Origin: Lichina pygmaea
Lineage: Eukaryota; Ascomycota; Lichinomycetes; Lichinales; Lichinaceae
Length of the DNA: 64,000 nucleotides
Assembly: GCA_963422465.1 (NCBI GenBank)
Contig: OY730174.1
Coordinates: 2,232,001 to 2,296,000 of the forward strand
Direction of reading: 5' to 3'
Of this stretch, positions 8,992-28,157 are shown in pieces. How positions within the stretch are numbered: position 1 is the first letter of the stretch; each line of letters begins with the position of its first letter. The notes under the pieces are model-generated. The model was given only the letters and a program-made list of their open reading frames with translations. It made no database searches and was not told the origin of the DNA. Made by a program: the position numbers and the translations under genes.

Positions 8992-9976
8992 ATGCCGAAG
9001 ACAAAGAACTACACTGTTGCAGACCGAGTCCAGGCTCTTACTCTGGCTGAAGAAGGCAAGTCTTATGCTGAAATCAGCAGTATTACTGGAATATCCTTGT
9101 CGCAGATCACACGACTCTGCAGAAAGGCCAGGGAGCGAGGATTCGACCCATCAGTTTCCAAGCAGATCACAGCAGAATATGTGCAGGATGCACCAAAGAC
9201 TGGCTGGCCTGAAGTGATAGACAAGGAGAAGGAGAAGCAGATGCTGGAGCTTGTACAAGCAACCCATGAATCCCAAGAGATGTCAGCAGCAGAAATTGCA
9301 AGGGAGATTGGAGTTAGAACAACCACTGCGTATAAGCATCTGAAGAAGAAGAAGATGGGTAAATAGAAACCTATCTATAGACCTGGTATAATAATATCTC
9401 TACTATCTACAGAAGAAGAGTAACTGATAGCTGTGTACGTACGTATAGGTCTTACTCCAAAATGCGCAAAGCTCATCTTGAGTTTGTGTTCATTAAAGTA
9501 CAGAGACAAGTCTATGGAGTGGTGGAAGAATGTGATCTTCTCAGACAAAACAGGGATTGTGCTAGGACAGTGGTGGCACAAGAATCAGATCTGGAGACAG
9601 ACTTCAGAACAGTTTGAGAAGACCTGCATATGTCAGTGTTGGAAGAAGTGTACAGAGTTCATGTTCTGGGGTAGTTTTTTGTATGACAAGAAGGGACCCT
9701 GCCATATCTGGAAGACTGAGACAGCCAAGGAGAAGAAGGAAGCAGACACAGAGCTTGAAGCTCTGAATGTGTCTCTGGAGCCTGCAGCAAAGGAAGCCTG
9801 GGAACTAGACATGTGGATGTCATGGTTGAATCTCTGATGAAAGTCTGCAGGACAGACACCCCAATGGTGCTTCACAGCCAAAAGAGGTAAGGTTATACAA
9901 TAAGGCAAAGGAGGAATTGATTGGTATCGATACAGCAAGATTATCCTACACCAGAAGCTTCTACTCTTCACTCAGG
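8992..9976 (+). pseudogene. Tc1-like transposase, 5' part
   Basis: From ATG 8992 a 124-codon frame reads an N-terminal helix-turn-helix (VADRVQALTLAEEGKSYAEI, then SLSQITRLCRKARERGFDP) and a second winged-helix-like segment (AAEIAREIGVRTTTAYKHLK), then stops at 9366. A further frame (about 9433-9837) carries the start of the DDE catalytic domain (VIFSDKTGIVLG holds the first catalytic Asp) and a WGSFLYDKKGP segment. At least one stop or frameshift lies between the two, so this half is already dead apart from the retroelement insertion at 9977. Confidence 0.75.
9972..9976. repeat. Target-site duplication TCAGG, left copy
   Basis: TCAGG directly precedes the left LTR; the same five bases follow the right LTR at 28158-28162. 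Five bases is the usual Ty3/gypsy duplication. Confidence 0.9.
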
Positions 9977-10330
9977 TGTTAAGGCCTAGGCCGGAACAGC
10001 CCAGGTAAGCGAGGGAGGAGTGTTAGTCATACGGAACAACATCCGACCGATCCGGTGGACGAGCAGTCCCTAAGCGAGGAGCTCGTCCACGCAAAAGGAT
10101 GATACCCCTCAAGGAGACCCCCCCCTCGGGGCATCTGTATAAAGACCCCCCAAAGAGCCCGGAGGGATTAGCTCTCCAGGCTGAACACACATGCACACAT
10201 CGTACTGAGACAATAGCATAGGAGAGTTACCCCACCTGTCTATTCCTCTACCGAGTCCCTGTCTAGAATCCGCCCTGCGAAGCAGCAAGACTGTACCGGC
10301 TTCTGTGTGAACCCGGCCCGGCCTTTAACA
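9977..10330 (+). repeat. Left LTR of element 1 (354 bp)
   Basis: Begins TGTTAAGGCCTAGGCCGG and ends GGCCTTTAACA. A TATAAAG box at 10138-10144 is the likely sense promoter. It matches the right LTR apart from a few substitutions and the absence of a 35-bp duplication. Confidence 0.9.
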
Positions 10331-10620
10331 GTTTCAGCCTCTAACATACAGGACACTGACTCGATACGATGGTGGATCCACAAAGCCCTACCCCTTCCCA
10401 GGCGGCTCAAGCCCAAGCTGCTCAGGCGGCTCAGGCCCAGGCTGTCCAGGCGGCACCTATTGTTAACCTACCCCCGAAGCCCTTGAAGGTAGGTACCCCG
10501 AAGAGGTACGATAGATCCAGGGGAGGACTGGAGTTGTTCTTCTCACAACTGGAGCTTTACTATAGGTTCAACACAGTCCAGTTCCCGACAGACCAGGAGA
10601 AGGTGCTATTCGCAGCCTCC

Positions 10621-10895
10621 TGTGACGAGGCAATGGCAGAGCAGAACTCGAGCCTAACTGATTCGGTAACCTTGACCTGACTTGGCTTGAGACTTGAGAC
10701 TTGGATTGATGTACAAGACGAAAGACGAGGAAGGAAAAAAAAAGAGAAAAGAAGAGAAGAAGCTGGGGAAGCAGGAGAAGTTCTTATAGGCAGGGGATCA
10801 GGCAACGGCGGAGCAAACAGGCAACAGTGCAGATGGAACTTCCCGGCAAGGTGCGTGACTTGTGCCAGATATGCAACTGGGCCAGAACTGTGACA
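10621..10895 (-). repeat. LTR of element 2, left (its 3' LTR)
   Basis: On the plus strand it begins TGTGACGAGGCAATGG and ends CCAGAACTGTGACA. It is preceded by CCTCC. Confidence 0.9.
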
Positions 10896-13800
10896 TTACC
10901 CCCCTCCTTCACATCGCGAACTCCTGTGAGCCTCAGGCCGCTCGTGGGCGTAGTTCCGTGGCCGTGGTTTCCTTGGGTATTTCTCATGGAAGTTGTAGAT
11001 GGCGTCTTTGGCGTTGTCAAGATGCTCAATAGGCTCTTCAGTGGCATCTTCAATTGGCCATCCAGACCATTTGACCAGGTACTTGAACTTCTGTCGAGAC
11101 GTTGCTGGCTTGGAGTCAAGGATTTCTTCAACCTGGAACTCTTCATCTGTGTCTTGACTAATGACAGGGCCAGGGTGTTCATTTGATTGGCCAGGGATAG
11201 GATTAGCAGGTGTCAGACGTAGAAGGGAAACGTGAAAGACAGGGTGGATCTTGAGAGTGTGTGGAAGCTCCAGATGGCAGGCACGGCTTCCGACTGTCTT
11301 CAACACCTTGAATGGTCCAATCCACTTGTCGTCAAGCTTTTTGCATGGGCGGCGTGTCCTGATGTTCTTGGTATTCAGCCAAACAAGATCTCCAGTTTGA
11401 TAGGACGGTGACGGGACTCGATGCAAATTGGCGGCGTGAGCTTGAGCTTCCTGGGATAGTCGGAGTTCCGCTTGCAACTGCTCCAGAATCTGCGTCATTT
11501 CTCCAGAGATTTCCATAGCATCTTGGTTGCAGGCTTCACTCGTGGGTGTGATGCTGAGCCGTGGATGGAACCCTTTGTTGGCAAAGAACGGTGACATGCC
11601 AGAGGAATCAGACTGGGAGTTGTTCTACGTGAACTCTGCCAGAGGAAGCCATTGGACCCAGTCATCTTGGAGATAGTTGACATAGGATCTCAGGTAGCGT
11701 TCAAGCTCCTGATTCTCTCGTTCTGTCTGACCATCTGTCTCTGGGTGGTGTCCTGAGGATAGTCGTAGCATGACATCAAGATGGGCACAGAGTGCTTTCC
11801 AGAATGAGCTGACAAACTGACCTCCTCTGTCTGAGACAATGCTCCTGGGCAAGCCATGGGTACGGACAACAAACTGGATGAACATCCGGACAAGATGCGA
11901 GGTTGTCATCTCGGCACATGGCACAAAGTGGCGTTCTTTGGTGAGACGGTCAGTGATGACCCAGATGTGCTTGGCACCAGGGAAGCAGGTATCTCTTGAC
12001 TTGGGCAAGTCAGTAATGAAATCCATAGCCAGATCCTGCCAACGTTGCTGAGGCACGGGAAGAGACAGCAGCTCTCCTTGGCGATCACGGGCAGGCTTTG
12101 CTCAAGAGCAGACATGACAATTCCTGATGTACTGCTGTATGATGTTCACCATCTTTGGCCAATAGTACCAACGAGACAGAAGATTGTGAGTCTTGGCAAT
12201 CCCAGTGTGGCCAGCCATTGCTTGGTCATGGGCTTCTTGGAACAGGCGTAGGCGTAGCTCATCGTTCTCAGGGATCCAGAGTCGGTTCTTGTAGAAGAGA
12301 CGGTCATTTTCCAAGCTGCAGTCTGAGAGAGACACTTCTTGACTGTGCCTGACACCATCCCTTAGCATCTGTGACACTGTTGCCACTGGATCACCTTCAG
12401 CAAGGTTGTTATAGGCAGCTTGGATGATGTCTGAAAGAGGTGTAGCATCAGGTTCAGTGTCAACTGGTGCAGCTTCTGAACGTCTCAGGATCCGGATGGG
12501 CTTGACTTGAACCTCTGAATGTGCAAGATTCTTGGGCTTGAGGACGACTTGCTCCCTGAAGTCTTGACGGGGATCACTGTCTGACGGGAGGTCTTGGGAA
12601 CGTCGAGTGAGGGCGTCGGCCTTGCACTGACTGCCTGGACGGTAGCTGATCTTGAAATTGAAGCGTGACAAGAACTCGCTCCAACGGGCTTGACGGCGGG
12701 AAAGGCGCTTTGACGACATGAAGTACTCCAAGTTCTTGTGATCAGAGATCACTTTGACAGGTTCTGGAGATCCTTCAAGCTCTGCTCGCCATTCTTCAAA
12801 GGCACGGACAATTGCCAGCAACTCTTTGTCGTAGATCTCGTAGTTGTATTCTGCCGGCAGGTGGCGGCGTGACAAGAAGGCAACAGGGCGTAGAACTGCT
12901 TCATGATCTGGCTGTGACAGGACAGCACCAGAGACGTAGTCAGAAGCGTCAGTCTCAACAACACACTCCTTCTCCGGATCAAAGTGCTGTAGGATGGGTG
13001 CAGTGCTGAACGCCTTCTTGATGCTTTCGAACAAGCGCTGCTCTGGGGTTTCCCACTTGAAGGCAACATTCTTCTTGGTCAGAGCTGTGAGCGGGGATGC
13101 AAGCTTGGCAAAGTCTTTGATGAACCGGCGGTAGAAGTTTGCAAAGGCAATGAAGCTCTGCACTTCCTTGAGACTGGCAGGAGGATTCCACTCCTTGATG
13201 GCGTCGGTCTTGGCTGGGTCCATGCTCACAGATCCGGGTCAGCCATCTTCAGTGGCAGACTGAATGATGAGGCCAAGGTACTTGACTTGATGCACTTCAA
13301 AGTCACACTTGGAGATGTCAACTTGCAGGCTTGCGTCTCGTAGTCGACTGAGAACAAGCTTGACGTGCTTCCGGTGTTCCTTGAGTGTCTGACTGTAGAC
13401 AAGGATGTCATCCACATAGGCAGTGCCAAAGATGTCAAGGATGTCAGGTCCCAAAACATCATTGATGTAGTTCTGGAACGTGCTTGGAGCATTGGCAAGA
13501 CCAAAGGGCATGACAAGGTATTCGTAGAGGCCTGAGCGTGTGCGGAACGCAGTCTTCCATTCTTCACCTTCCTTCATCCGGATACGGTTGAAGGCACCAA
13601 CAATGTCAAGCTTGGTGTACCACACAGCTTTGCAAAGCTGGTCCAACATCTCCCGGATCAGTGGTAGGGGGTAACAGTTCTTGATGGTGATGGCGTTGAG
13701 TGCTCTGTAGTCTACACAGAAACGCAATCCACCTCCTGGCTTCTTGACAAAGAGGACTGGTGCAGCAGCAGGTGATGAAGATGCTCGAATGAAGCCCTTG

Positions 13801-15671
13801 TTCAGGTTCTCTGTCAGGTACTTCTTGAGAACTTCAAGTTCTTCTCTGCTCATGCCGTACAGAGGTCCAGAAGGTGCCTGGGTTCCTGGTTCCATCTTGA
13901 TCTTGTGGTCAACTCCTGGGCGTAGAGGAGGAAGCTTGTCAGCGTCATCCTTGCTGAAGACGTCCAGGAACTCGTGGTACTGAGCAGGGAGAAGTGTGGC
14001 AGGATCCACGCACTTCTTTGGCTTCAACACCTGCTCAATGTCTCTCAGAGAAACACTGAACACCTGGTGATCTGGCTTGGCAGCAAGGAGAGAAAATGCG
14101 GCAGCATTGATAGGGATTGGCGTGGCAGAAAGGGGCTTGGGATCCTGAGGCTTTCCAGCAGACGTCTTGGCTTCAAGATCCAAAGAGATTGGATAGCCAT
14201 TGTTTGACTTGAGGCATGCGGATCAGCAGTGATCTGACTTGAACATGATTGAGGTGTTTGTCCAATCAATGTGTGGCCCGTGCTTCTGGAGCCATGGCAT
14301 CCCCAGAATCACATCATAGTGAAGACCAGGAGACACAAAGAGAGAGACTTCCTCCTGGTGCACGCCATGTGCCATGGTCATGATTGTCTTGGCGAGATGC
14401 GTGGTTTGTGACATCTTGCCATCGAACGATCGCAATGTGCGTGGGTAGGGGAGAGGTTCTTGGTGAAGAGATTGCGCAAAGGAAGCACCAATGCAGCCAA
14501 ATGCTGAACAGCCAGAGTCAATAAGAGTATTGCACTTGAATTTCCTATCTAGGATACAAGGAAGAAACAAGCACTTGCTGTCCAATCGCTGGTCTGGAGA
14601 CAGATAGCCAACATGGAGGTCCTTTTCATGTCCTTGGGCGCGATGATGACCAAGGACTACTTGTTTTCCGACTCTGGAGTAGTCTCAACAGTGGCAGACT
14701 TGGTGGTGGTCGTGGTGGTGGCAACAACAGGCATGCTTTTCACTGGACAGAAGGTTGAGACATGACCCTGGTTCCCACAGTAGAAGCAGAGGCCTTTGCT
14801 TCGGCGATGTTCTTGCTCTTCTGGCGTCAGCTTAGAGCGGCTGAGATCCATGGTAGGACTTGGTGGCTGTGGCGTGAAGGCTGGCTTGATGAACCCTGGA
14901 CGCAGAACTGAAGCTCCTGACTGTGGAACTGAGGCTTGGGTGGGAGGTGTTTGACGTGGACAGTGAGAGTTGGCAGAAGTGGCACGCAACTGGTTGTCCT
15001 GCAGCTGGCATTCCTCAACAAGCTTCTGATAGCTGATGTCCTTGAGGTTGATGCTGACAAGCTGCTTGGCAAGCTCTTCAGAGACAGCGCATCGAAGATG
15101 GCACTTCAAGGCCTTGTTGTTGAAGCCTGTGCGTGGAGCATACTGATTGAACTCTGTGAAGAACTCAGCAAAGGAACGGTTGGCCTGACGCAAGGTGATG
15201 AGCTTCCTCTGAGCTAGGAACTCTGGGTCTGGGTCGGAGAAGGCGTTCTGGAGATCTTGGACAATGTCGTGCCAGTCAATGTACTGGCCAGCCGTGATCT
15301 TAGCTGAGATGTAGGACTGCGCAGTGCCAGTCGTGCGTGAAAAGACGTACGCAATCCGCGATGTTTCCGTGGGGTACCGGTCAGCGTTGAGCGTCATCTT
15401 GAGTGACAGTGACGTGATGAAGCTCTCAAGCTTCTCATGCGTGATTTCCGTGTTTCCGCCATCGCCACTGAAGATCTCTGGGTCAGCAGTGCGTTCGGAC
15501 TTGGACTTGGGAGTGGTGTTGGTAGCTTGAATTCACATGAACTCTGCAAACATGTTGCGAAGGAACTCGTCATTTCCAGCAACTGGCATGGCTTGGTCTG
15601 GTTGTTGAGACATGACAAGGACGTGAACGTGGCTTGGTGAAGTGTGTTATGGTTGGGTAGGTCTTTCGTAG

Positions 15672-15946
15672 TGTGACAAGGCAATGGCAGAGCAGAACTC
15701 GAGCCTAACTGATTCAGTAACCTTGACCTGACTTGGCTTGAGACTTGAGACTTGGATTGATGTACAAGACGAAAGACAAGGAAGGAAAAAAAAAGAGAAA
15801 AGAAGAGAAGAAGCTGGGGGAGCAGGAGAAGTTCTTATAGGCAGGGGATCAGGCAACAGCGGAGCAAACAGGCAACAGTGCAGATGGAACTTCCCGGCAA
15901 GGTGCGTGACTTGTGCCAGATATGCAACTGGGCCAGAACTGTGACA
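15672..15946 (-). repeat. LTR of element 2, right (its 5' LTR)
   Basis: Same length and ends as the left copy; followed by CCTCC at 15947-15951. Confidence 0.9.
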
Positions 15947-18900
15947 CCTCCTACCTGGAAGGACCAGCCTTCGCTTGGTTCAACATCTACTTAAGGGATT
16001 ACCTAGACAATCAGGCAGACCCCAAGGGGCAAGAAGGCAATACCCGACAGGTCATGGGAAGCCTGAAAACCTTTAAGACAGCCATGAGAAAGACGTTTGG
16101 GATTCTTGACAAGGAAAGAGATGTGGAACAAAAGCTCCAAGCACTGCGGCAAACAGGATTGGCATCAGAGTTCGCGGCAAAGTTCCAACAACTAGCAGTG
16201 AGAACCCAGTGGGGAGACAGTGCACTAACAGCACTATTCTACCAAGGCCTCAAGGAACAAGTCAAGGACAACATCGTGTGAGGAGACTGACCAACCGAGC
16301 TCTACGAAATAATCAAGACTGCGGCTCACATCAATGACTGACAGTTCAAGAGAGAGCTTGAGAAGTGAGGCAAGCAGACAAAACTATAGGTGAAGAAAAA
16401 ACCAACACCTGCCAAAGATAATTACAGCTTGGTACCCATGGAAATCGATGTGATGGAACCACGAAAGAAGAAGACACGGAAGTGTTACAACTGTCAGAAA
16501 GTGGGCTACCTTGCGGTGAACTGCAGGAGCAAGAAGAAGAACAAGAAGGGCAAAGGGAAGCAGTTGAATGCCACAAGCACCTGGAAAGGCAGGGAGGTGG
16601 AGGAGTCCCAGAGAGCCCCCCAAGGCACACTGCCCCACAATCACCCTGAGGCAGCACTCCTCAGAGAGGAGGACGACCTCTGACAACACGCCGAAAAACT
16701 TGAGATCATGCTTCAAGAAACCTTGGATCACCTTGACGAGGTCTGAAGGAAGGTTGACAGAATCCACTGGGAGGATGACCTGATCTCCGAGTTCGACACA
16801 ACTGGCTACATGGAGGAACAGGTTGACGACAAGGAAGCCCAGCCACCACCAGTCCCTGACAAACCTGTCCTTCAACGACAGGACACAACCCTATCAGAAA
16901 TAGGGGAGACGCAAGTGTCATGATGGGTCAACGATACCCTCAGCATCACACAGGTCAGAGACATCACCACACAAGTGGACCTACACCAGGCTACAACAGC
17001 AGCCTGCGGACGACCTTATTGGAAGGTGTGCGAAGACGACCACTGCAAGGAACACCTTCTAGAGAAAAGAAAGAAGATGTGGTTCCCAGGGTCTGAGGTG
17101 GAAGCATGATAGAATATGCACATCCAAAGAGTCAACCCTGAACAAGATGATTGCAACCAAGACCTGTGGGAATGATGCCTCACCACACGATGCAAACAAC
17201 ACGCAGTAGAGTGTCAGGCCCAGGGCCTAGGCAGCTCAAAAAACTAGCAGCGCTCTTCAAAACCGGGGTTGGAAGAGCAGGCAAGACAACACCCCGGGAG
17301 GAAGGAGTCAAGCTGAGCCTTGACACGACAGCCTGCAGCCTGCACTTTCACATCAAGATCAGAGTCAATGGGTAGTTGGCTAAGGCCATGATCAACTCTG
17401 GTGTGACTGGCAACTTCATGTCAGAAAGCTTTGCCAGAAGAAACAAGGTTCCAGTCCAAGGCAAGAAAGACTCTTACCAATTGACGGTAGTGGACAGAAC
17501 ACCACTCTCCAAAGATGAAGGACAAGTGATGAAGGAGACCAAGAGTCTGGGACTGAGTGTCCATGGCATGATGATCAGAACAGAGGAATTCGACTTGGTC
17601 TGAATACCACACGAAGTTATATTGGGACTTCCGTGGTTGGAAAAACAAAACCCAAGGATTGACTGGAAAAGAAAGCAACTAGTCTTTCTGGATAAGACAC
17701 TGGTCAAGTCAGAACCAGGAGTGACAATCAAAGAAATCTCACTGACACAGTGGAAGAAACACCACCAGCGCGGGGAGGCCTGTGTGGCCTGGATGAAACC
17801 CCGAACACAACAACTTTGCACCACGCAAGACGCTGTGGGCAAGACTCAGGCACCGCAGTTGCCAAGTGAGTATAAAGAATACCAGGAGATGTTCGAAGAA
17901 ACAGTGATCGCGACACTACCGGAACATCAAGAGTGGGACCACAAGATTCCGCTGGAAGATGGAAAAAAACCCACACACAGCCCTATCTACACTCTGTCAG
18001 CGAAAGAGCTTGAGGCCCTGAGAGACTACCTGGACAAGAACCTAGTGAAAGAGTTCATAAGACCTTCAACATCACCGGCTGGATACCCGATACTGTTTGT
18101 GCCAAAGAAAGATAGCAAACTTCGACTGTGTGTTGATTATCAGCGGCTAAATGTGATCACAGTGAAAAACTGTTACCCGCTGCCATTGATATCAGAAATC
18201 CAAGACTGGATCCAAGAAGCCAAATAGTTTACCAAGTTCGATATTCAAGGTGCTTTCAACCTGGTTAGGATGAAAGATGGCGAAGAATGGAAGACAGCCT
18301 TTCGTACGAGGTACGGGCATTACGAGTATACTGTGATGCCATTCAGCCTTACGAATGCACCGGCAACATTCCAATCACTTATTAACACTGTCCTCCGACA
18401 ATACCTGGACATATTTGTCACCGCCTACATCGACAATGTCTTGGTATACACCAATGGAACCTTGGAGGAGCATAAACAGCATGTCAAGAAGATTCTACAT
18501 GTGCTCCAGAAAGCAGGCATGAGGTTACGCCTTGATAAGAGTGTTTTCCACATGAAAGAAGTGGAATATTTGGGGTTGATCCTAACAACAGAAGGAATCT
18601 GAATGGACGACACAAAGACGGCAGCAGTACAAGACTGGCCAACACCCAAAAACCTCAAAGAAGTACAATCCTTCCTAGGATTTGCAAACTTCTACTGACG
18701 ATTTATCAAGGACTACTTGAGGACAGCAGCAGTCTTGACAGAGTTAACCAGAAAGAATGAATCTTTCAGGTGGGGGGAGAGCCAACAAGTGGCCTTCCAG
18801 GAGTTGAAGAATAAATTCATCTCCGCACCTATTTTGGCATCATTTGACTCTGAGAAGAGGATTATTTTAGAGACTGATGCCTCAGACCAAGCATTGGGAT

Positions 18901-19010
18901 CCTGCTTGTGTCAACCAGACGCTGACAACTGCTTACACCCTGTCGCGTACTGATCGAGAAAGTTCTCTGGCCCAGAACTGAGGTACGATGTTCACGACAA
19001 AGAGTTGTTA

Positions 19011-19608
19011 TGTTGCGGTCTGTACTGTACTGTCCTATCCGAGTATAGGATTAGGGCGAGAGGTGGAAGGCGGGTTGGTTCTCGCAGGAGAGGAGTGTCA
19101 AGGAGTGCGAAGGGGTTTGGTGGAACGTGGTGGTGGTGACACCTGATCACGGCTTTGTACAAAGGATTGTATTGAAGTAGATCTAGTTGTCTGGATCACA
19201 ACATGAGTTGAAGACGATTGTTCCATAAGGGAACTATCGCCAGACTATATAGTGCTGGCCTGTCGAGATGATCAAGATTGTCTTGACAGTCTTGATGTCG
19301 AGACGGGTGAGATTGTCTCGACGGTCCCACCATGTTATGCACCCTGCGTCGAGACTGGTGAGATTGTCTCGATGCATCATGCGTCATGCGTCGAGACTGG
19401 TGAGATTGTCTCGATGCTTCATGCATCATGTGTCGAGACTGGTGAGATTGTCTTGATGCTTCATGCATCATGCGTCGAGACTCCCGTGTGTGTCTTGACA
19501 GTCACGTGACTCCTTGTTGGTTGGTCACTTGACTTCCATGGTGTCCTCTTGCCTGGCCCGCGGCCTGATTGCCTATAAATAAGTGGCTCCCATCCCTGGG
19601 TCGTAACA
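19011..19608 (-). repeat. LTR of element 3, left (its 3' LTR), with internal hairpin repeats
   Basis: Begins TGTTGCGGTC and ends GGGTCGTAACA. Between about 19250 and 19500 it holds some six tandem units of about 36-45 bp, each with a GTCGAGAC ... GTCTCGA(C) inverted pair able to form a hairpin. On the plus strand TATAAAT lies at about 19573-19580, pointing into the element. Confidence 0.9.
19573..19580 (+). promoter_or_regulatory. TATA box in the LTR of element 3, reading antisense to the element
   Basis: TATAAAT lies about 80 bp upstream of the antisense ORF start at 19653, on the same strand, in the last 40 bp of the LTR. This spacing fits a promoter for that ORF. The other LTR keeps the motif. 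Promoter activity is inferred. Confidence 0.45.
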
Positions 19609-19652
19609 CTACCCTCCTCTCCTTCATTCATCGTCCTGATGAATTCTTGAGT

Positions 19653-20153
19653 ATGTCTGCAAAATCACGTGCCTCTGCTTACCGAAACCAACTGGCAGCC
19701 CAGATCCGTGATCATAACTTCGTGTCGCTTGCTCCGTGTGACTTCTGTGTTTTGAACCACAAGCCCTGCTTCCGAATGTCTGACGACAACGATAAGTTGA
19801 AGTGCGCTGAGTGCACTCGTCGGGGAAAGTCCTGTGTGTCACTTTCTTGGGAGTCGCTGAACATGACTCGGGATAACCTTCGCGAGGATTTGGCTGTCGA
19901 TGAGGCCAAGCGGGATGCTTTTGTCGAGCAGCTTGCCAAGCTGCAGGCTTGTGTGTCCCGAAAGCGAAAGGTTCTTGAGGGTGCTGAGGGTCGAGCAAAG
20001 AAGAAGCTCCAGTGCCTTGTTGCTGAAATGGAGGTGGATGGTGAAGATTTGTCGGCGACAGTCATTGACGTGTCCGCGCTGCAGGCCGAGCTGTTCAGTC
20101 CTGCTCCTGCCGGAACTGCTGCAGGAGGAGCTGGCAGTTCGCGAGGTTCCTGA
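19653..20153 (+). CDS. Antisense ORF of element 3: Zn2Cys6-like cluster plus coiled coil (166 aa)
   Basis: ATG at 19653, 44 bp inside the LTR junction, reading against gag-pol and ending at 20153 over the chromodomain end (tail-to-tail overlap). Residues 29-61 read C-X2-C-X6-C-X11-C-X2-C-X6-C (CDFC...C...[11 protein letters not shown]), exactly the spacing of the fungal Zn(II)2Cys6 binuclear cluster. A helical, charged region follows (about 70-140), then an Ala/Gly/Ser-rich tail. The basic residues usual between Cys2 and Cys3 in GAL4-type proteins are few, so DNA binding is not certain. Length, position, orientation and layout match the ORF at 27139-27648. The frame is whole although the element's pol is broken. 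Confidence 0.65.
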
Positions 20154-23100
20154 GTGGCTCCCAGGTATTTTCCGAGTCTGGGTAGTCTTTCCACTTGACA
20201 AGGTATCACTGACCTTTTCTCTTCAGGATCTGTTTGGCCTCGAATTCCTGTTCTTCCTCTGGTTGGTAATGAAATGTTTCCTGCAAGGGTGTGCTCTGGT
20301 CGGCTAATTCAATCATTGAGATGTGAAAGTTTGGGTGTACCCGAGCATCTCTCAGTAGTCGCAGTCTGACGTTGACTGGTCCGGTTCTTTCTTCGACTGA
20401 AAATAGTCCAACCTTAACATAGTCCAGTTTCTTTGTTCTTGGTTTCTTGACTTTCCAATTTTTTGTGAGGAGGTAGACTTTATCCCCCTTCTTCAGCTGA
20501 GGTGCCATTTTCGATTTTTTGTCCATTTGGCGTTGCATCTTTTCTGAGGTCTCTTGAAGGTAATGCCTCATCATCGTGTGTGTTTGTCGTAGGAGCTTGT
20601 CATGTTGGAGTGCTTTCTCCATGTTTGGTGAAGCTCTGCTTAGCATTCTGATGTTTGCGTGTCGTCCAAAATTGGCAAAGAATGGCGATTCCTTTGTTGA
20701 GTCTGATCTGTGCTGGTTGATTGCCAGCTGTGCCACTGGTAATAATTGTACCCAATTGCTGTGGGTCTGGTTGATGTAATGCCGCAAATAAGTCTCCAGG
20801 ACTTGGTTTGCTCACTCTGTCTGGCCGTCAGTTCGTGGGTGATAGGCCGTAGACATCTTGGGTTTTGTTCCCATAGCTGCACTGATTGTTTTCCAGTAGT
20901 TGGATGTGAAGAGTTTGTCTCTGTCAGTAATGACCGTGATTGGAACTCCGTGGTCCCTGACCAATCTGTCCAGTAGGAGGTGTCCCAACTGCTCTGCTGT
21001 GTGAGTTTCCTTGAATGGTACTGCTATTAGGTATTTCGTGAATCTGTCCACAATCACCATAATTGAGTTGTAGGTGATTCCTGTGACTGGGTCTTTGGAC
21101 TTGGGTAGCTTTGTGATGAAGTCCATTGACACATCTTCCCACGGGCCTCTCGGTATCATGTTCGGGTGTCCTTCTCCATATGGCTTGTGTCTTCCATGCT
21201 TGTTTTTCTGGCATAGTAGACATTTGTTGATGTAGCTTGTGACGTGTTGTCAGAGATTGATGACATTGTTCCCTGCCTGTTGGATCAGGTCTGTGGTTTT
21301 GGTGATTCCTGGGTGACCATGTGCTGGATTATCGTGGTAGTTCCTTATTAGTTCTTCAGTGTCTTCTGCCGTGAGCTTGTTGATCTGTGGTTGAGGCACC
21401 AGGTTTCCTTGCTGGTCCTGCTGTAAGATCATTCCTTGGCGTTCATCATCTTCCATGTGGTTTTTTCGTCGGCTTAGTGCGTCTGCTCTCCCATTGTCTT
21501 GTCCGGGGGTGTACAAGATCTTGAACTTGTGTTGCCCTAGGAGTTCAGCCCATCTGACTTGTCGTCTGTTCAGCTTCTTGGTTGTTGTGAACGTTGTCAG
21601 ATTCTTGTGGTCTGTGAGAATAGTGAGTTCAGAACTGCTTTCCGCGTACACTCTCCAGTGTTCGAGTGCGTTGACAACTGCCAGTAGCTCTTTATCGTGG
21701 ATATCATAGTTTCGTTCCGCTTGTGTCATTTTTCGTGAGTAGTAGGCAACTGGGTGCCACTTGCTGTCTGCCTGTTGGCATAGACATACTCCCACTGCCT
21801 GATCTGAAGCGTCCATCTCGATTCGCGTCGGTTGGCCTGTCTTGAAGTTGAGGAGAACTGGTTCCTTGGCGCAAGTGTCCTTGAGCTGTTGGAATGCTTT
21901 TTGTTGTCTCTCCGTCCACCGGTACTCCACGTCCTTCTTCGTGAGTTCTGTCAGTGGTGTTGCCATCTGTGAGTAGTTCTTGATGAACTGTCAGTTGAAG
22001 TTGGCAAATCCTAGGAAGGCTTGTACTTCCTTGACTGATGTCAGTGTTGGCCATTGCTGAATCACTTTGATTTTCTCAGGGTTGATCTTGATCCCTTCGA
22101 TTCCTATGATGTATCCGAGGAATTCAACTTCCGGTTTGTTGAACTCGCATTTCTTCGGGTTGAGCTTGAGCCCTGCCTTTTGTAGACATCGTAGAACATC
22201 CTTCACATGTTTGGTATGTTCCTGTTGCGTGTTCGAGTAGACAAGAATATTGTCCAAGTAGGCGATAGCTGTTTGGTCCAGGTGTGCTCTGATGACGTTG
22301 TTGATCAATGCTTGACATGTTGCTGGTGCGTTCGTGAGTCTGAATGGCATAACCAGATACTTGTAGTGTCCGTATCGGGTTCTGAAGGCTGTCTTCCATT
22401 CTTCTCCTTTTTTCATGCGTATCAGGTTGTATGCTCCTTTCAAGTCCAGCTTGGTAAAGGTTGTAGCTTGACTGATCCTGTCTCGCAATTCGTTCGCATT
22501 TGGCAACAGATATCAGTTCTTGATGGTAATGTCGTTGAGTTTCCTGTAATCCACACAAAGTCGAAGACTTCCGTCTTTCTTTGGTGCAAATAGTATCAGG
22601 TATCCTGCTGGCGATTGAGATTCTCGAATGAAACCCTTTTTCAGGTTTTCCTCCAGGTACTCGCGAAGTACTTGGAGCTCTTTCTCTGATAACTGGTAAA
22701 TTGGTCCAAATCCTGGCTCTGTCCCTGGTTGCAACTTGATCTCATGATCCCAAGGTTGGTGCTTAGGCAACGCTGCTGTTGTTGTCTCTTCCTGAAAAAG
22801 GTTATCATACCTAGGTCGGTACTCTTCAGGGATCTCCAGAGGGTTAACAACTTCCTCTCTCTTCATCTCTGACTGTTTGGCCACCTGGTTCCGGGGTGTG
22901 CCTGTCAAGGTGGACCTCTTCTCTTGAGAGTTGTCCTTTCTGTCGGTGAGGTTCCACTGAGGACTCCTTCCCTCATCTGTCCACGCCTTCTGCGGCTGGT
23001 AACAGGTCCGAGCTGTGTTGTTAGTGCAGTTCCTAAACGTGAGTACTCCTGTCTTCCAGTTAACAACTGGGTTGTGCTTCTTTAGCCAAGGCATCCCCAA

Positions 23101-24947
23101 ATAGATATCCTGAGTGGCCAACTCAACAATATCAAGGTGGATCCTTTCAGCATGGTGTCCGGTAACCATTTCCATTGGCTGCGTCTCATGGCAGACTAGC
23201 TCTGTCTGTCCATTTGCCATCGCGAGCTGATAGGGCTGCTGCTTGCGTCTCCTTCCAGTGCCGAGGGTATCGTAAAGTTATCTTGAAATGTAGTTCCCAC
23301 TGGCTCCAGAGTCAACAAGTGCGTATGTCCGTACTGGCGTGTTGGCGTGTAGTGACACAGGCAATCACAGGTGCTTTGCGTTGCTAGGGGTCATGTTGTT
23401 GAGCTCCCGATGTCACCCCTTGACAAGGGAGTTCAGTCTTTTCCTGATCAAAGTGTTTTTCCACTGACTGGGCAATGGGTCCAGCCATTCCCATCAGTTC
23501 TGAGGAATCTGTTCATGAATTTGTCTTGCTGATGCTTGTCACATCCAGGCTTGAGGCAGTACTGCCAATTGTCGACGTAGCAGTTGTAGTTGTTGCCTTG
23601 TTGTAGGAACATGAGGTGTTCGTGCCAATCATGTGTGTGCCCGGGGAATGCGGTGTGTTGGTGTTTGTCCCAAAGATGGATCTCACACGCATCCTTCTCG
23701 CAATTGACCCAATGCTTGTGGCAGGTGGCGTGGTAGGGTGAATGTCCTCCATACCTTCGTAGTTGTTCGTGGTAGGTGCAGTAGTGCCTTGTGCAAAACC
23801 TCCACTGTAGTTCGCCGTGCCGTAGATTTCGTGGGTCCATGCTGTAAGCATAGCTTCCTTGTGGTATTTCTTCTTTGATAGACGCGGGTTCGTCTCGGTC
23901 CCTATCAGAGGTGGTTAAGGGCTCCTGTCCCTTGTCCTGACCTGTTAGTTCTGGTAGGTCCTTGCCTCCTGATGTTGCCAGTTGGTGGGCTGCTTCCAAT
24001 ATCTGATCGTAGTTGTCCCATTGTTTGAGGGATAGCTGAGCCTCTCCTGGTGGGTCCTCTGGCTTGATGACATTCCAGTCTCCGTCGAGCGTATTAAGTT
24101 GCTGTCGGTGCACCTTGTTCTTTGAACGACAGTCTTTCACCATGTGGCCTAGCTTGCCACAGGCATAGCACTTCAGTGCTTTCCCCTTTTTGTTGTTCCT
24201 TCCCTTCGTGAACCTTCCCTTGTGGTGGACTGCATCCAGTTCCATGGGTGCATAGCCATATGGATCATGTGGCAGTGCCTTGTTAGGCAGCTTGTAGTGG
24301 TTGCTCACATGCCATGCGGGGCGGCTGTATCCTCCGTCGTGGCGTTTCTCCATCGCTCGCTTGAATAGTTTGTCATCAATGTCGATTGCTTGTGCGATGA
24401 GTTCATCCAGTGTGTCGACCACTCGTCCGTCGAAGGTGATTTCATCCTTCACGTTTTCCTTGAGTCCACGTCGGTACATGACCATCAGGGCGTCGTCGTC
24501 CCAGTCAGTCAGTACTGAGTATTGTTTGAACTGCGTGGTGTACTCTGCGGCTGAGCGTTGTTTGATGTGCTGGATCATTCGTATAGCCACTTTGTCTTCG
24601 TTAGATGGTCCAAGGATTCTTTTGATCTCGTCCTTGAATCGTGTCCATTTCGTCATCCATTCCGATGTGCCGTCGTGGTCTCCGTTTCCTGAGAGATGTT
24701 TGTTGACGTAGGGCTTGATCCATCGATAAGCATTGCCTCTCATGTAAGTGGTTGCAAAGAGTGGCCACTTTTCTTTAGGCAGCTTCGTCTCTGGTTGGAA
24801 TTGAAAGTAGACTTGGAGTTGCATGAGCCAATCATCGACCTTGTTCCTTTCGCTGTAGAACAGGTCTGGCTTGGCGACGCTAATCTTTCCATCTGGGAAG
24901 TTGGGGTCGGTTGCTCCTGAGGTACTCATCCTTGAGGGTCTTCAAAG

Positions 24948-25545
24948 TGTTGCGGTCCGTACCGTACTGTCCTATCCGAGTATAGGATTAGGGCGAGAGG
25001 TGGAAGGCGGGTTGGTTCTCGCAGGAGAGGAGTGTCAAGGAGTGCGAAGGGGTTTGGTGGAACGTGGTGGTGGTGACACCTGATCATGGCTTTGTACAAA
25101 GGATTGTATTGAAGTAGATCTAGTTGTCTGGATCACAACATGAGTTGAAGATGATCGTTCCATAAGGGAACTATCGCCGGACTATATAGTGCTGGCCTGT
25201 CGAGACGATCGAGATTGTCTTGACAGTCTCGACGTCGAGACGGGTGAGATTGTCTCGACGGTCCCACCATGTTATGCACCCTGCGTCGAGACTGGTGAGA
25301 TTGTCTCGATGCATCATGCGTCATGCGTCGAGACTGGTGAGATTGTCTCGATGCTTCATGCATCATGTGTCGAGACTGGTGAGATTGTCTCGATGCTTCA
25401 TGCATCATGCGTCGAGACTCCCGTGTGTGTCTCGACAGTCACGTGACCCCTTGTTGGTTGGTCACTTGACTTCCATGGTGTCCTCTTGCCTGGCCCGCGG
25501 CCTGATTGCCTATAAATGAGTGGCTCCCATCCCTGGGTCGTAACA
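24948..25545 (-). repeat. LTR of element 3, right (its 5' LTR)
   Basis: Same 598-bp length, ends and hairpin-repeat block (about 25190-25440) as the left copy; followed by TGTTA. Confidence 0.9.
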
Positions 25546-27138
25546 TGTTAGCAATCGTCAACGTATTCCAAGAATGGAGGCCTTACTTGGAGGGGGTGAA
25601 ATACACGGTGGACATGTACTCAGACCACAAGAACTTAGCTTACTTCACGACAACGAAGAAGCTAAACTGACGACAAGTTTGATGGGCAGAGTTGTTGGCA
25701 TCATACAACTTTCAAATCCTCTACCGGAAGAGCACTGAAAATACTCAAGTGGACGCACTCAGCAGGCGACCAGACCTGATGGACAAGAAAACAACAGAGG
25801 AACACCCAATCCTAGCGATGAAAGGACAAACCCTGGTCTATGCCCAACCCCAACTGGCAACAACTGAAACAAAAGGTCCACTCCTTACCCTTGGCCACAA
25901 GGTGGCAAACAAAAAGGAAATTGTGCCAGAAAGAGCACAAGAGGAGGTGATCCGGAGGCACCATGACAGGCCTTTGCACAGACACCCCGGGCGAGATAAA
26001 ACCTTGGAGAAAATCCAAAGGAACTACCGCTTCGACAGAATGAAGTGCAAGGTGACAGAGTTCATTCGCAACTGCGAACAGTGTGCGAAGAACAAACCAT
26101 CAAGACATAAGCCCTACGGGCAGGCACAGCAAATGGGCCTACCCGAGGCACTATGGGAAACTATCATGATGGATTTCATGGTCAAGTTGCCAAAGTCAAT
26201 AGACCCAGCAACAAAGGTGGTATACGATAGCATTTTGGTGGTTGTGGACAAGCTTACCAAATACGCTCACCTGGTCCTGTGGAAAGAGTCAGGAACCGCG
26301 AACAAACTCGCAAATGTTCTACTCAAAGAGCTGGTAAGCCACCGAGAGCTACCAAAAATAATCATCTCGGATCGAGACAAACTCTTCACCTCGAAATTCT
26401 GGAACATGTGGACAAGGTAACTTGGCATTGATACAAGGATGTCAACAGCCTACCACCCACAAACTGACAGACAAACTGAGCGGACAAACCAGACGATGGA
26501 GCAGTATCTACAACACTACATCAACCACCAGCAGGATAACTGGGTGGAACTGCTACCAATAGCACAGTTTGCGTACAACAACCAGCAACACAGCGTGACG
26601 GGGACAACACTGTTCTTTGCGAACTACGGAAGAAACCCCCGATGGCAGGCAACAGCAGGAGGCAATGTTGTCAATGTTGATAAACTTGCTGCTATGCACG
26701 AGATGATGAAAACAACAATCGACCGTGCCCAGAACACCACCACCCGCCGATTACACGACAAAAGGTTGAAGGGACCAACCCTGGAAAGGGGGGATAAGGT
26801 CTACCTATCAACAAAAAACCTGCGCTCAAAGCGACCGAGCAAAAAGCTGGACCACGTACGAATCAGACCATTCGAAATCGAGAAGCACACTGGGAAAGTC
26901 AACTATCAACTGAGACTACCACGAAAAGCAAGGATACACCGAGTATTCCACATCTCGCTACTCGAACCAGCACCCAGCGACGCAGAGATCAAGACAGAAT
27001 GGAACTTCAAGAACGACGAAGAAGAGTATGATGTTGAAAGGATCCTGGATAGTCGGAGAAACAGACAGAAAACTGAGTACCTGGTGAAGTGGTTAGGTTT
27101 TGACGAAGAGGAGAATTCGTGGGAACCAACCGAGAACT

Positions 27139-27648
27139 TCAGCCCTGCGATGAACCAGAAGCTGGTGGATTACCACCGAGCAAACCCGCAGCGACCAGGT
27201 CCGACAGCGACAACAGCTCGAGAGGAGCCAAAGTCTCTGAGGAGAAGACGTCCTCAAAGGATGGTGGAGCAGCAGCCTGACTGGCCTCCCGTTCGCGAAT
27301 AACGCGGAGAGTCTCCTGCTCCTGAGCATCGAGGGACTCTTGATCCTCGATGGCCGACAGCTCACGACGGATGGCATCAGCCTCTTTCTGAGAGAGATGA
27401 CCCAGCTGCCGGCGGAGGTGGATCTGCCGGGGAAGCAACTTCGACAATTGGTCATTGGTCTCTCGCAGCTGAGCCTCGAGCTGCTCGCACTCAAGTTCCA
27501 TCTTCTTCCATTCTGATTCCGAGAGATGAAGGTTGCAGCGACGACCCTTCTCAACACACCGACAACAAAAAGATGATGCGGAGCTCACGACACACTTGGC
27601 GTGGTCACGACGATAAGCACCGCATGTGATTTTCGATTCCTTGCCCAT
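27139..27648 (-). CDS. Antisense ORF of element 1: cysteine-cluster plus coiled-coil protein (169 aa)
   Basis: This ORF reads against the element, from an ATG at 27648 near the 3' LTR towards the integrase, and overlaps the end of the sense pol frame tail to tail (27139-27302). The N-terminus is Cys-rich (CRCVEKGRRC preceded by two more cysteines). Its spacing recalls the fungal Zn(II)2Cys6 cluster, though less completely than its counterpart at 19653. A long heptad-like Leu/Glu/Arg region follows (about residues 45-125), then an acidic, Leu-rich tail. Seen: open frame, Cys layout, helix-forming composition. Inferred: a DNA- or nucleoprotein-binding accessory protein. Function unknown; it belongs to a dead element. 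Confidence 0.55.
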   Translation of the reverse strand: MGKESKITCGAYRRDHAKCVVSSASSFCCRCVEKGRRCNLHLSESEWKKMELECEQLEAQLRETNDQLSKLLPRQIHLRRQLGHLSQKEADAIRRELSAIEDQESLDAQEQETLRVIREREASQAAAPPSFEDVFSSETLAPLELLSLSDLVAAGLLGGNPPASGSSQG

Positions 27649-27768
27649 TTTGCCAATGTGACAAGAGAACTGCGATGACAAGTTCGAGTTGTCTGATCTC
27701 GGTTCATGACAAAAGAGGAGCAGGAACGAAAAGGATCTGGGGACAGAACCCTTGGAGGGAGGGGATAG

Positions 27769-28157
27769 TGTTAAGGCCTAGGCCGGAACAGCCCAGGTAA
27801 GCGAGGGAGGAGTGTTAGTCATACGGAACAACATCCGACCGATCCGGTGGACGAGCAAGAGCTAAGCGAGGAGCTCGTCCGGTGGACGAGCAGGAGCTAA
27901 GCGAGGAGCTCGTCCACGCAAAAGGATGATACCCCTCGAGGAGACCCCCCCCTCGGGGCATCTGTATAAAGACCCCCCAAAGGGCCCGGAGGGATTAGCT
28001 CTCCAGGCTGAACACACATGCACACATCGTACTGAGACAATAGCACAGGAGAGTTACCCCACCTGTCTATTCCTCTACCGAGTCCCTGTCTAGAATCCGC
28101 CCTGCGAAGCAGCAAGACCGTACCGGCTTCTGTGTGAACCCGGCCCGGCCTTTAACA
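27769..28157 (+). repeat. Right LTR of element 1 (389 bp)
   Basis: Same ends as the left LTR. It is 35 bp longer because a segment around 27845-27915 (GGTGGACGAGCA...GAGCTCGTCC) is tandemly duplicated. TATAAAG recurs near 27965. Confidence 0.9.

Follow-up and report, generated by a model that had tools for sequence, protein, structure and literature searches.

An antisense gene for a Zn2Cys6-like protein between pol and the 3′ LTR of Ty3/gypsy elements in Lichina pygmaea

The antisense genes and their elements

The window analysed here, 64,000 nucleotides of the genome of Lichina pygmaea, contains nested insertions at 9976–28157, where an outer element on the plus strand (element 1) holds elements 2 and 3 (Table 1). 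Element 3 is a Ty3/gypsy element with two LTRs that are 97.7% identical and with TGTTA beside both outer ends. Its pol and gag ORFs are located on the minus strand; therefore, the plus-strand ORF that begins at 19653 (ORF1; family 1, subfamily 1a) is antisense to them and lies between pol and the 3′ LTR. A second antisense ORF (ORF2; family 2) occupies the same slot in element 1, the LTRs of which are 98.9% identical over 355 aligned bases. The original prediction had placed ORFs of 166 and 169 codons in this slot of both elements, and both have been found there. They also share the predicted plan, consisting in each case of a Cys cluster, a predicted long helix, and an Ala/Gly/Ser-rich tail. 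In ORF1, a six-Cys cluster at residues 29–61 is followed by the predicted helix (about residues 66–148, with limits taken from the predicted model of its relative P0003) and by the low-complexity tail; in ORF2, the cluster covers residues 9–38 and the predicted helix about 44–126, as placed by the predicted model of its relative P0064. The Cys spacing of ORF1 is exactly C-X2-C-X6-C-X11-C-X2-C-X6-C, as had been claimed for these 166 codons from an ATG, and the pattern C2C6C(5-12)C2C6C appeared in 0 of 200,000 shuffles of the ORF1 protein. The claim of a comparable cluster in ORF2 holds for the family rather than for the window copy, which has lost one of the six Cys (CGAY); the full C-X2-C-X6-C-X8-C-X2-C-X6-C is present in 27 of the 30 family-2 copies fetched.

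The description of both elements as chromoviruses is upheld for element 1, whose pol gives a Pfam Chromo hit, as does the comparison element 2, but not directly for element 3. No Chromo hit was obtained from Pfam in its last pol ORF (20206–20787), in which only SH3_Tf2-1 was listed and the frame of which ends just beyond this domain; the missing Chromo domain has been read as a frame interruption in the window copy. In family 2, the pol end and the antisense ORF end overlap tail to tail over about 160 bp (window 26439–27648), and on the pol side the overlap begins in the last part of the chromodomain match. Thus, both strands are coding there.

Table 1. Positions in the window of the antisense ORFs and of the surrounding element features.
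Feature	Position	Strand	Remarks
Element 2	10621–15946	−	nested within element 1
Element 3	19011–25545	−	nested within element 1
3′ LTR, element 3	19011–19608	−	U3 part is the end adjoining the antisense ORF
Candidate sense TATA (TATATA), element 3	19246–19251	−	far side of array
U3 tandem array, element 3 3′ LTR	19337–19482	.	42-bp unit × 3.5
Antisense TATA box TATAAATA, element 3	19574–19581	+	35 bp before inner 3′ LTR edge
Antisense ORF, element 3 (ORF1, subfamily 1a)	19653–20153	+	166 aa, ATG start
pol 3′-end ORF piece, element 3	20206–20787	−	SH3_Tf2-1 domain, no Chromo hit
Other pol and gag pieces, element 3	21250–24929	−	RNase H, RT, gag with zinc knuckle; several ORFs
5′ LTR, element 3	24948–25545	−	
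Same 42-bp array, element 3 5′ LTR	25274–25419	.	
Integrase/SH3/chromodomain end of pol, element 1	25692–27302	+	two ORF pieces
Antisense ORF, element 1 (ORF2, family 2)	27139–27648	−	169 aa; last codons opposite pol end
3′ LTR, element 1	27768–28157	+	partner LTR 9976–10330
U3 tandem array, element 1	27843–27915	.	35-bp unit
Family-2 dyad GTGGACGAGC-N16-GCTCGTCCAC	27882–27891 / 27908–27917		arms of the dyad
Candidate sense TATA (TATAAA), element 1	27965–27970	+	

TATA boxes and tandem arrays in the LTRs

The antisense TATA box of element 3 has counterparts at the matching place, 33–34 bp from the LTR edge, in subfamily 1b (TATATAAAG, at L077:44) and in the LTR beside a copy of subfamily 1c (TATAAAAG, at L085:330, minus strand); these distances, and that in element 3, were counted by hand. 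The U3 sequence beyond the box differs among 1a, 1b, and the 1c-adjacent LTR. In the LTR of element 1 (family 2), no antisense TATA box was found, the only box there being the sense TATAAA. An antisense promoter in the 3′ LTR has been described for HTLV (PMC7264820).

The tandem U3 array of family 1, which contains dyads, is bracketed by the opposed TATA boxes. The dyad of the 1a array is TCGAGAC-N10-GTCTCGA (as listed for the 5′ LTR copy), and the 1b array, read in one copy, consists of a 50-bp unit repeated 3.8 times with GTGAGC/GCTCAC inverted repeats. The LTR of element 2 shows one 7-bp inverted pair only (a single negative), and the pol frame of this element reaches its 3′ LTR, so that there is no space for an antisense ORF. 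The value of the dyads as strong independent evidence was weakened by dinucleotide shuffles, which reached the dyad in 221 of 2000 cases for the 1a unit and in 361 of 2000 for the 1b consensus unit, compared with 10 of 2000 for the family-2 unit and 8 of 2000 for the first 1b unit. The dyad of a single unit therefore carries little weight in 1a and in the 1b consensus unit, and more in family 2 and in the first 1b unit.

Copies and relatives

Copies were searched for in the genome from which the window was taken (8 contigs, 32.5 Mb). With ORF1, the best 150 of 517 candidates were scored and all were 84–100% identical; with ORF2, the best 150 of 277 were scored, at 76–100% identity. The original prediction called for homologous antisense ORFs in other copies, and these exist in the hundreds, with the best 150 matches scored per search. 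A relative from the protein database, P0003, is 71% identical to ORF1 and matches this genome at 78–100% identity (best 150 of 511 scored); therefore, a second subfamily, 1b, is present in it. One of these 150 scored matches (L080), 79% identical to P0003, represents a third type, 1c. In the case of P0007, the best matches reach only about 64–66% (best 150 of 509 candidates scored), and thus this protein presumably comes from a different genome. The stop-free type-1c copy adjoining an LTR is found at L080 and L085 (C7:1388400–1389881), and since this LTR is inverted relative to the ORF, the copy is a rearranged one. Locus L011 has unrelated sequence upstream of the antisense ORF.

The six Cys are kept in all 29 oriented family-1a loci (30 were fetched, one of which was not oriented by the script), in 26 of the 29 listed family-1 relatives of at least 140 aa, in 7 of 9 family-2 relatives of at least 160 aa, and in five full-length relatives that share 40–48% identity with P0003; one partial relative is recorded as coming from a Watsoniomyces MAG. 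An ATG, a frame without stops, and six Cys are combined in 12 of the 29 oriented family-1a loci and in 18 of the 30 family-2 loci, fractions that are upper estimates because the loci were chosen as best protein matches. Many family-1 copies contain TGA stops, and the stops listed there are mostly TGA; those listed in family-2 copies are mostly TAG. Many of the variants among family copies are CpG transitions. The TGA stops of family 1 and the CpG transitions would be in accordance with a RIP-like or methylation-driven decay.

Selection on the antisense frame

The ratio of nonsynonymous to synonymous change (omega) was obtained from Nei-Gojobori counts in stop-free copies. Comparison of 1a with 1b gave dS values of 1.19–1.30, dN values of 0.18–0.19, and omega values of 0.145–0.15 (3 pairs); omega was 0.12–0.13 for 1a versus 1c (2 pairs) and 0.19–0.31 for 1b versus 1c (4 pairs). 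Pairs within a subfamily gave 0.64 (1a, with 9 differences) and 0.27 (1b). Of the five other frames, used as controls in two pairs, four showed omega values of 1.25–1.57. The differences are distributed over the three codon positions as 32/29/78 in one 1a–1b pair (chi-square p 8.5e-8), 27/23/80 in a 1a–1c pair, and 18/20/52 in a 1b–1c pair. Along a 1a–1b pair, codons 1–65 of the ORF have a dS of 2.06 and an omega of 0.12, and the last 46 codons a dS of 0.46 and an omega of 0.43, with dS saturated in between.

Variation within the 30 fetched copies has been taken as a secondary test, since these are best protein matches and carry many CpG changes. In family 2, the non-CpG variants common to at least 4 of the 30 copies were 13 synonymous to 3 nonsynonymous (p 2e-4 versus the expectation from transitions) in the part of the ORF outside the stretch opposite pol, and the singletons were 8 synonymous to 12 nonsynonymous plus 2 stops. 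No synonymous excess was detected in the family-2 stretch opposite pol (4:7) or among shared CpG-type variants (8:15 plus 4 stops in 1a, 13:16 in family 2), and the shared non-CpG variants within 1a (3 synonymous, 2 nonsynonymous) are too few to tell.

The suggestion that this is an accessory gene kept by selection has been confirmed by the homologues in hundreds of copies together with omega values between subfamilies of 0.12–0.31 rather than 1; a chance ORF is ruled out by omega and by the conservation of the Cys. The antisense gene is genuine, occurs in many copies, and evolves under purifying selection. In fact, the case for selection is stronger than originally stated, and that for the identity of the domain is weaker.

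Nature of the cysteine cluster

The rule for Zn(II)2Cys6 domains is C-X2-C-X6-C-X5-12-C-X2-C-X6-8-C. This spacing (PF00172) was found in ORF1 of the window, in each of the 29 oriented family-1a loci, and in 27 of the 30 family-2 loci. Zn_clus was listed by Pfam for 6 of the 22 proteins scanned, always below the gathering cut-off of 21 bits, the best scores being those of P0070 (20.0 bits, E 7.6e-4) and P0166 (18.7 bits, E 0.0019). The related search result for DUF3716 (PF12511; cut-off 22 bits) was a sub-threshold score for P0003 (13.8 bits, E 0.055), and this family was not listed by Pfam for any other of the 22 proteins; no bZIP was present among the Pfam hits of either ORF. Since the curated cut-offs are not reached, the antisense proteins are not assigned to either Zn2Cys6 or DUF3716, and both are described as "Zn2Cys6-like". 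The original link to Zn2Cys6 is supported in part, by the exact spacing and by recurring Zn_clus hits that all fall short of the cut-off (20.0 versus 21 at best).

It is a feature of Zn2Cys6 domains that the stretch from Cys 2 to Cys 3 contains basic residues, as it did in the 8 such domains compared. Family 2 has the basic RRDHAK at this place; family 1 has the weakly basic VLRGRP or VLNHKP, without a basic run. By hhalign, small early alignments of family 1 matched Zn_clus with an E of 2.1e-3, weaker than in later runs. Shuffles in which the Cys were kept scored as high against Zn_clus in 2 of 24 cases for family 1 and in 1 of 24 for family 2, so this match is due largely to the Cys spacing. 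The family-1 profile matches DUF3716 better than Zn_clus, and 0 of 24 Cys-kept shuffles reached that score, which indicates a fit beyond the Cys spacing. DUF3716 was rejected as the identity of family 1 on account of its score below the cut-off, and it stays as an alternative relative. The predicted likeness between ORF1 and ORF2 turned out to be weak: with small alignments, the single-pair E of hhalign was 0.012 (probability 3.5), and with a wider alignment it was 7.6e-4 (probability 25), a score equalled by 1 of 24 Cys-kept shuffles.

Direct sequence search of PDB chains gave nothing meaningful for either ORF alone. With the family-1 profile, GAL4 (E 1.6) was fifth of 8 weak hits, the remaining 7 being, by reading, mostly coiled-coil proteins. 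The structural side of the Zn2Cys6 link holds in part for family 2, where the weak matches are mostly of this class, but not for family 1. With the family-2 model, 4 of 6 PDB matches were PUT3 (two), GAL4, and LEU3 (best E 2.0), and a second look returned HAP1 twice. With the family-1 model, on the other hand, the best matches were KAP1 coiled-coil domains; PUT3 appeared at rank 3 in Foldseek with no other Zn2Cys6 protein, and none was listed in a second look with VIA-align. The Cys cluster was modelled at a pLDDT of about 47–62 in both families. Overall, the antisense proteins resemble Zn(II)2Cys6 factors such as Gal4, Put3, Leu3, and Hap1 (PF00172) in the six-Cys spacing, in a cluster followed by a helix, and in weak profile and structure matches; they differ from them in their sub-cut-off scores, their small size, their location in a retrotransposon, and, in family 1, the lack of the basic run. 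DUF3716, a fungal domain, shares the six-Cys layout, and its first part resembles family 1 at the profile level, but its Cys 2 and Cys 3 are further apart (X9 in 3 of 4 aligned domains).

There are 9 DUF3716 matches in the window's genome. In those at L071, L073, L074, and L075, the domain lies at about 1500–1780 and leads into a tail that is charged and helix-like. L071, L074, and L075 have 474–872 bp of DNA in common at 91–97% identity, and similarity to the gag and chromodomain-end pieces of element 2 was seen in the flank of L074. A DUF3716 gene may therefore exist in another repeat family. As further antisense ORFs these loci were rejected, because a flank like the gag or pol of the window was found in only 1 of 8 (L074; 1.5-kb flanks).

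U3 and the antisense gene as a recombining block

Over 100-bp bins, the identity between the window element and a 1b copy amounts to 97–98% in the first 200 bp of the LTR, 66–76% across the remaining U3 and most of the ORF, about 86% near the ORF end and the pol tail, and 90–99% from 20411 on. In pol (20451–21150), three 1b copies are 93.6–94.3% identical to the window and fall inside the distribution of 28 1a copies (median 94.05, range 91.2–98.3; the 28 oriented of 29 other fetched 1a loci). The R/U5 of one 1b copy is 97% identical to that of the window, compared with 78% for the ORF (two copies). Alignment of U3 to the window extends over at least 254 of 305 bp in 27 of the 28 1a copies, versus 48 nt in the 1b copy. 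Along a 1a–1b pair, dS rises from 0.106 and 0.211 in two pol pieces to 0.555 over the final 66 codons of pol and to 1.30 within the ORF.

Family 2 shows that pol is 74–80% identical between backbones and the ORF and LTR end at least 86%. Taking L040 as reference, pol identity is 79–80% in 15 of the 30 copies (L046 or copies 96.5–99.1% identical to L046), and 14 of the 30 are either 91.6–95.5% identical or L040 itself; the remaining copy, L065, has a pol that is 77% and 74% identical to those of L040 and L046, respectively. The ORF is at least 89.5% identical to that of L040 in all 30 copies. In L042 and L060, one pol backbone is paired with an ORF nearer the other type.

Family 1 thus has two very different blocks on one pol backbone, and family 2 has one block on at least two pol backbones; these patterns imply that U3 and the antisense ORF recombine as a unit relative to pol. 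It is improbable that rapid divergence, and not exchange, has produced the family-1 block. The stepwise rise of dS from pol through the pol end to the ORF could also be produced by a gradient of rates, but the ORF exceeds the two inner pol pieces of the same molecules six- to twelvefold in dS with omega still at 0.15, the R/U5 on the far side is 97% identical, and in family 2 the situation is reversed, with a conserved ORF and a diverged pol. Recombination explains both patterns. The antisense gene is inherited with the adjoining U3, and the block has recombined relative to pol; this behaviour of U3 and antisense ORF as a recombining block is new. The linkage between ORF and U3 could result from adjacency alone.

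Relation to known antisense genes

As is characteristic of antisense accessory genes of LTR retroelements, the present ORFs run antisense to gag–pol in the slot between pol and the 3′ LTR; they are also conserved from copy to copy and subject to selection. Boty-like Ty3/gypsy elements of Botrytis cinerea and Sclerotinia reportedly carry such a gene, brtn, said to be described by Zhao et al. in 2011. Boty brtn is described as an antisense gene in the pol/3′ LTR slot of a fungal gypsy element (PMC7264820, PMC8365987), and similarity to BRTN is reported for a Monilinia transcript (PMC5987419). The suggested novelty in fungi does not extend to the slot, which Boty brtn already uses; a fungal gypsy element with an antisense gene was known before the one described here. 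As described, Boty is likewise a chromodomain fungal gypsy with an extra antisense gene between pol and the 3′ LTR, and brtn has been likened to the present genes by slot and orientation, from description only; by contrast, the U3 block and the analysis of selection come from the present elements.

In plants, the antisense ORFs of gypsy elements (Grande gene23, RIRE2, Retand TRP28, and PvRetro13) agree with the present ones in slot, orientation, and conservation among copies, and DNA binding, a nuclear product, or an own promoter has been suspected in some of them; they encode other protein domains (TRP28, SMC-like), according to PMC7264820 and PMC11963269. The word "zinc" is absent from the main text of both papers, where the function of retrotransposon antisense genes is stated to be unknown. 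A zinc-cluster antisense gene or a repressor/operator block in an LTR element was not recognised in literature titles and abstract openings, and a literature search for DUF3716 yielded no paper.

Possible functions

The antisense gene of HTLV-1 is HBZ, which encodes a bZIP protein. As an analogy, the present genes might work in a similar manner, HBZ being an antisense gene expressed from the 3′ LTR with a DNA-binding and coiled-coil plan and with its own LTR as a target; it differs in having a bZIP instead of a zinc cluster and in belonging to an infectious retrovirus, and no homology is claimed. The recombining block of U3 array and antisense gene, together with the opposed TATA boxes of family 1, makes a self-encoded regulator of the LTR the likeliest explanation. 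With moderate confidence, the antisense product may thus be viewed, from sequence features, as a dimeric DNA-binding protein transcribed from the 3′ LTR that would act on its own LTR. The control of LTR transcription suggested in the original prediction is compatible with the block and with the family-1 arrays between opposed TATA boxes. Each Ty3/gypsy family encodes a small antisense protein with a Zn2Cys6-like cluster and a predicted coiled-coil-like helix. In family 1, transcription would start from the U3 edge of the 3′ LTR at the antisense promoter (TATA 33–35 bp before the edge); the protein would dimerise via the long helix, and the dimer would bind the tandem U3 arrays with their dyads. 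Through this binding, the protein would determine how active the sense promoter, and probably its own promoter too, is in every copy in the cell. Because the arrays lie between two opposed promoters, feedback repression, serving copy-number control, is slightly favoured over activation. If a regulator has to remain together with the sites that it binds, a tight link between the protein gene and U3 would be expected.

Alternatively, the protein might be a selected accessory factor of the replication cycle that does not act on transcription, perhaps involving nuclear import, targeting, RNA or Gag binding, or antagonism of host silencing, by means of a treble-clef/RING-like or DUF3716-like zinc module plus a coiled coil and linked to U3 by adjacency only. 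This possibility is considered less likely. It would account for the family-1 fit to DUF3716 beyond the Cys spacing, for the KAP1 RBCC as best match of the family-1 model, and for the weakly basic stretch between Cys 2 and 3 of family 1, and for the antisense ORFs of plants a nuclear function, or some other accessory one, has been proposed (PMC7264820). Against it stand the exact Zn2Cys6 spacing in both families, the recurring though sub-threshold Zn_clus hits, the predominance of Zn2Cys6 proteins among the weak structure matches of family 2, and the U3 arrays adjoining the gene.

It is very improbable that the antisense RNA is the functional product, either by forming dsRNA or by interfering with the sense transcript, and that the ORF has no role of its own. 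Antisense transcription of transposable elements has been documented in Blumeria, with 823 lncRNAs from their antisense strand (PMC10648671), and dsRNA roles have been proposed for plant elements (PMC7264820); but omega values of 0.12–0.15 between 1a and the other subfamilies, and Cys conserved across relatives at 40–48% identity, indicate that the protein itself is selected, and RNA as the sole explanation is largely refuted. Least probable is a sense-strand extension of pol (env-like) with the antisense frame held open by codon bias, since the only other frame of low omega, the fifth control (a reverse frame that shares its third codon positions with the ORF; 0.24–0.25 in two pairs), has 2–5 stops in each of 10 copies checked and a higher omega than the ORF in both pairs (0.254 versus 0.148; 0.24 versus 0.194), the antisense frame has no stops in these copies versus at least one per copy in each other frame, and the Cys motif, ATG, and TATA box belong to the antisense strand.

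Returning to the LTR regulator, a more speculative version of it, put forward tentatively, is an exchangeable module resembling phage immunity, in which an antisense zinc-cluster dimer would act on a binding array between opposed U3 promoters. In phage immunity regions, such as that of lambda, a repressor is encoded together with its operators. By analogy, the block described here may be likened to them as a regulator gene beside an array of sites between opposed promoters that is exchanged as a block; it differs in that it is part of a eukaryotic retrotransposon and its regulation is putative. If this were true, repression by resident copies would extend to all elements that share their module, which amounts to copy-number control, and a swap of the module by recombination at the 3′ end (as between 1a and 1b on one pol backbone) would allow escape, as in heteroimmune phages.

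The biological significance of these genes lies in the combination of three features: a small antisense protein with a recognisable layout of DNA-binding type, purifying selection that has been measured, and a defined candidate target region that is exchanged together with the gene as one block. Whether LTR retrotransposons encode a transcriptional regulator of their own can thus be tested directly, for which a few purified proteins and three U3 arrays would suffice, and the coexistence or replacement of element families is offered a genetic explanation.
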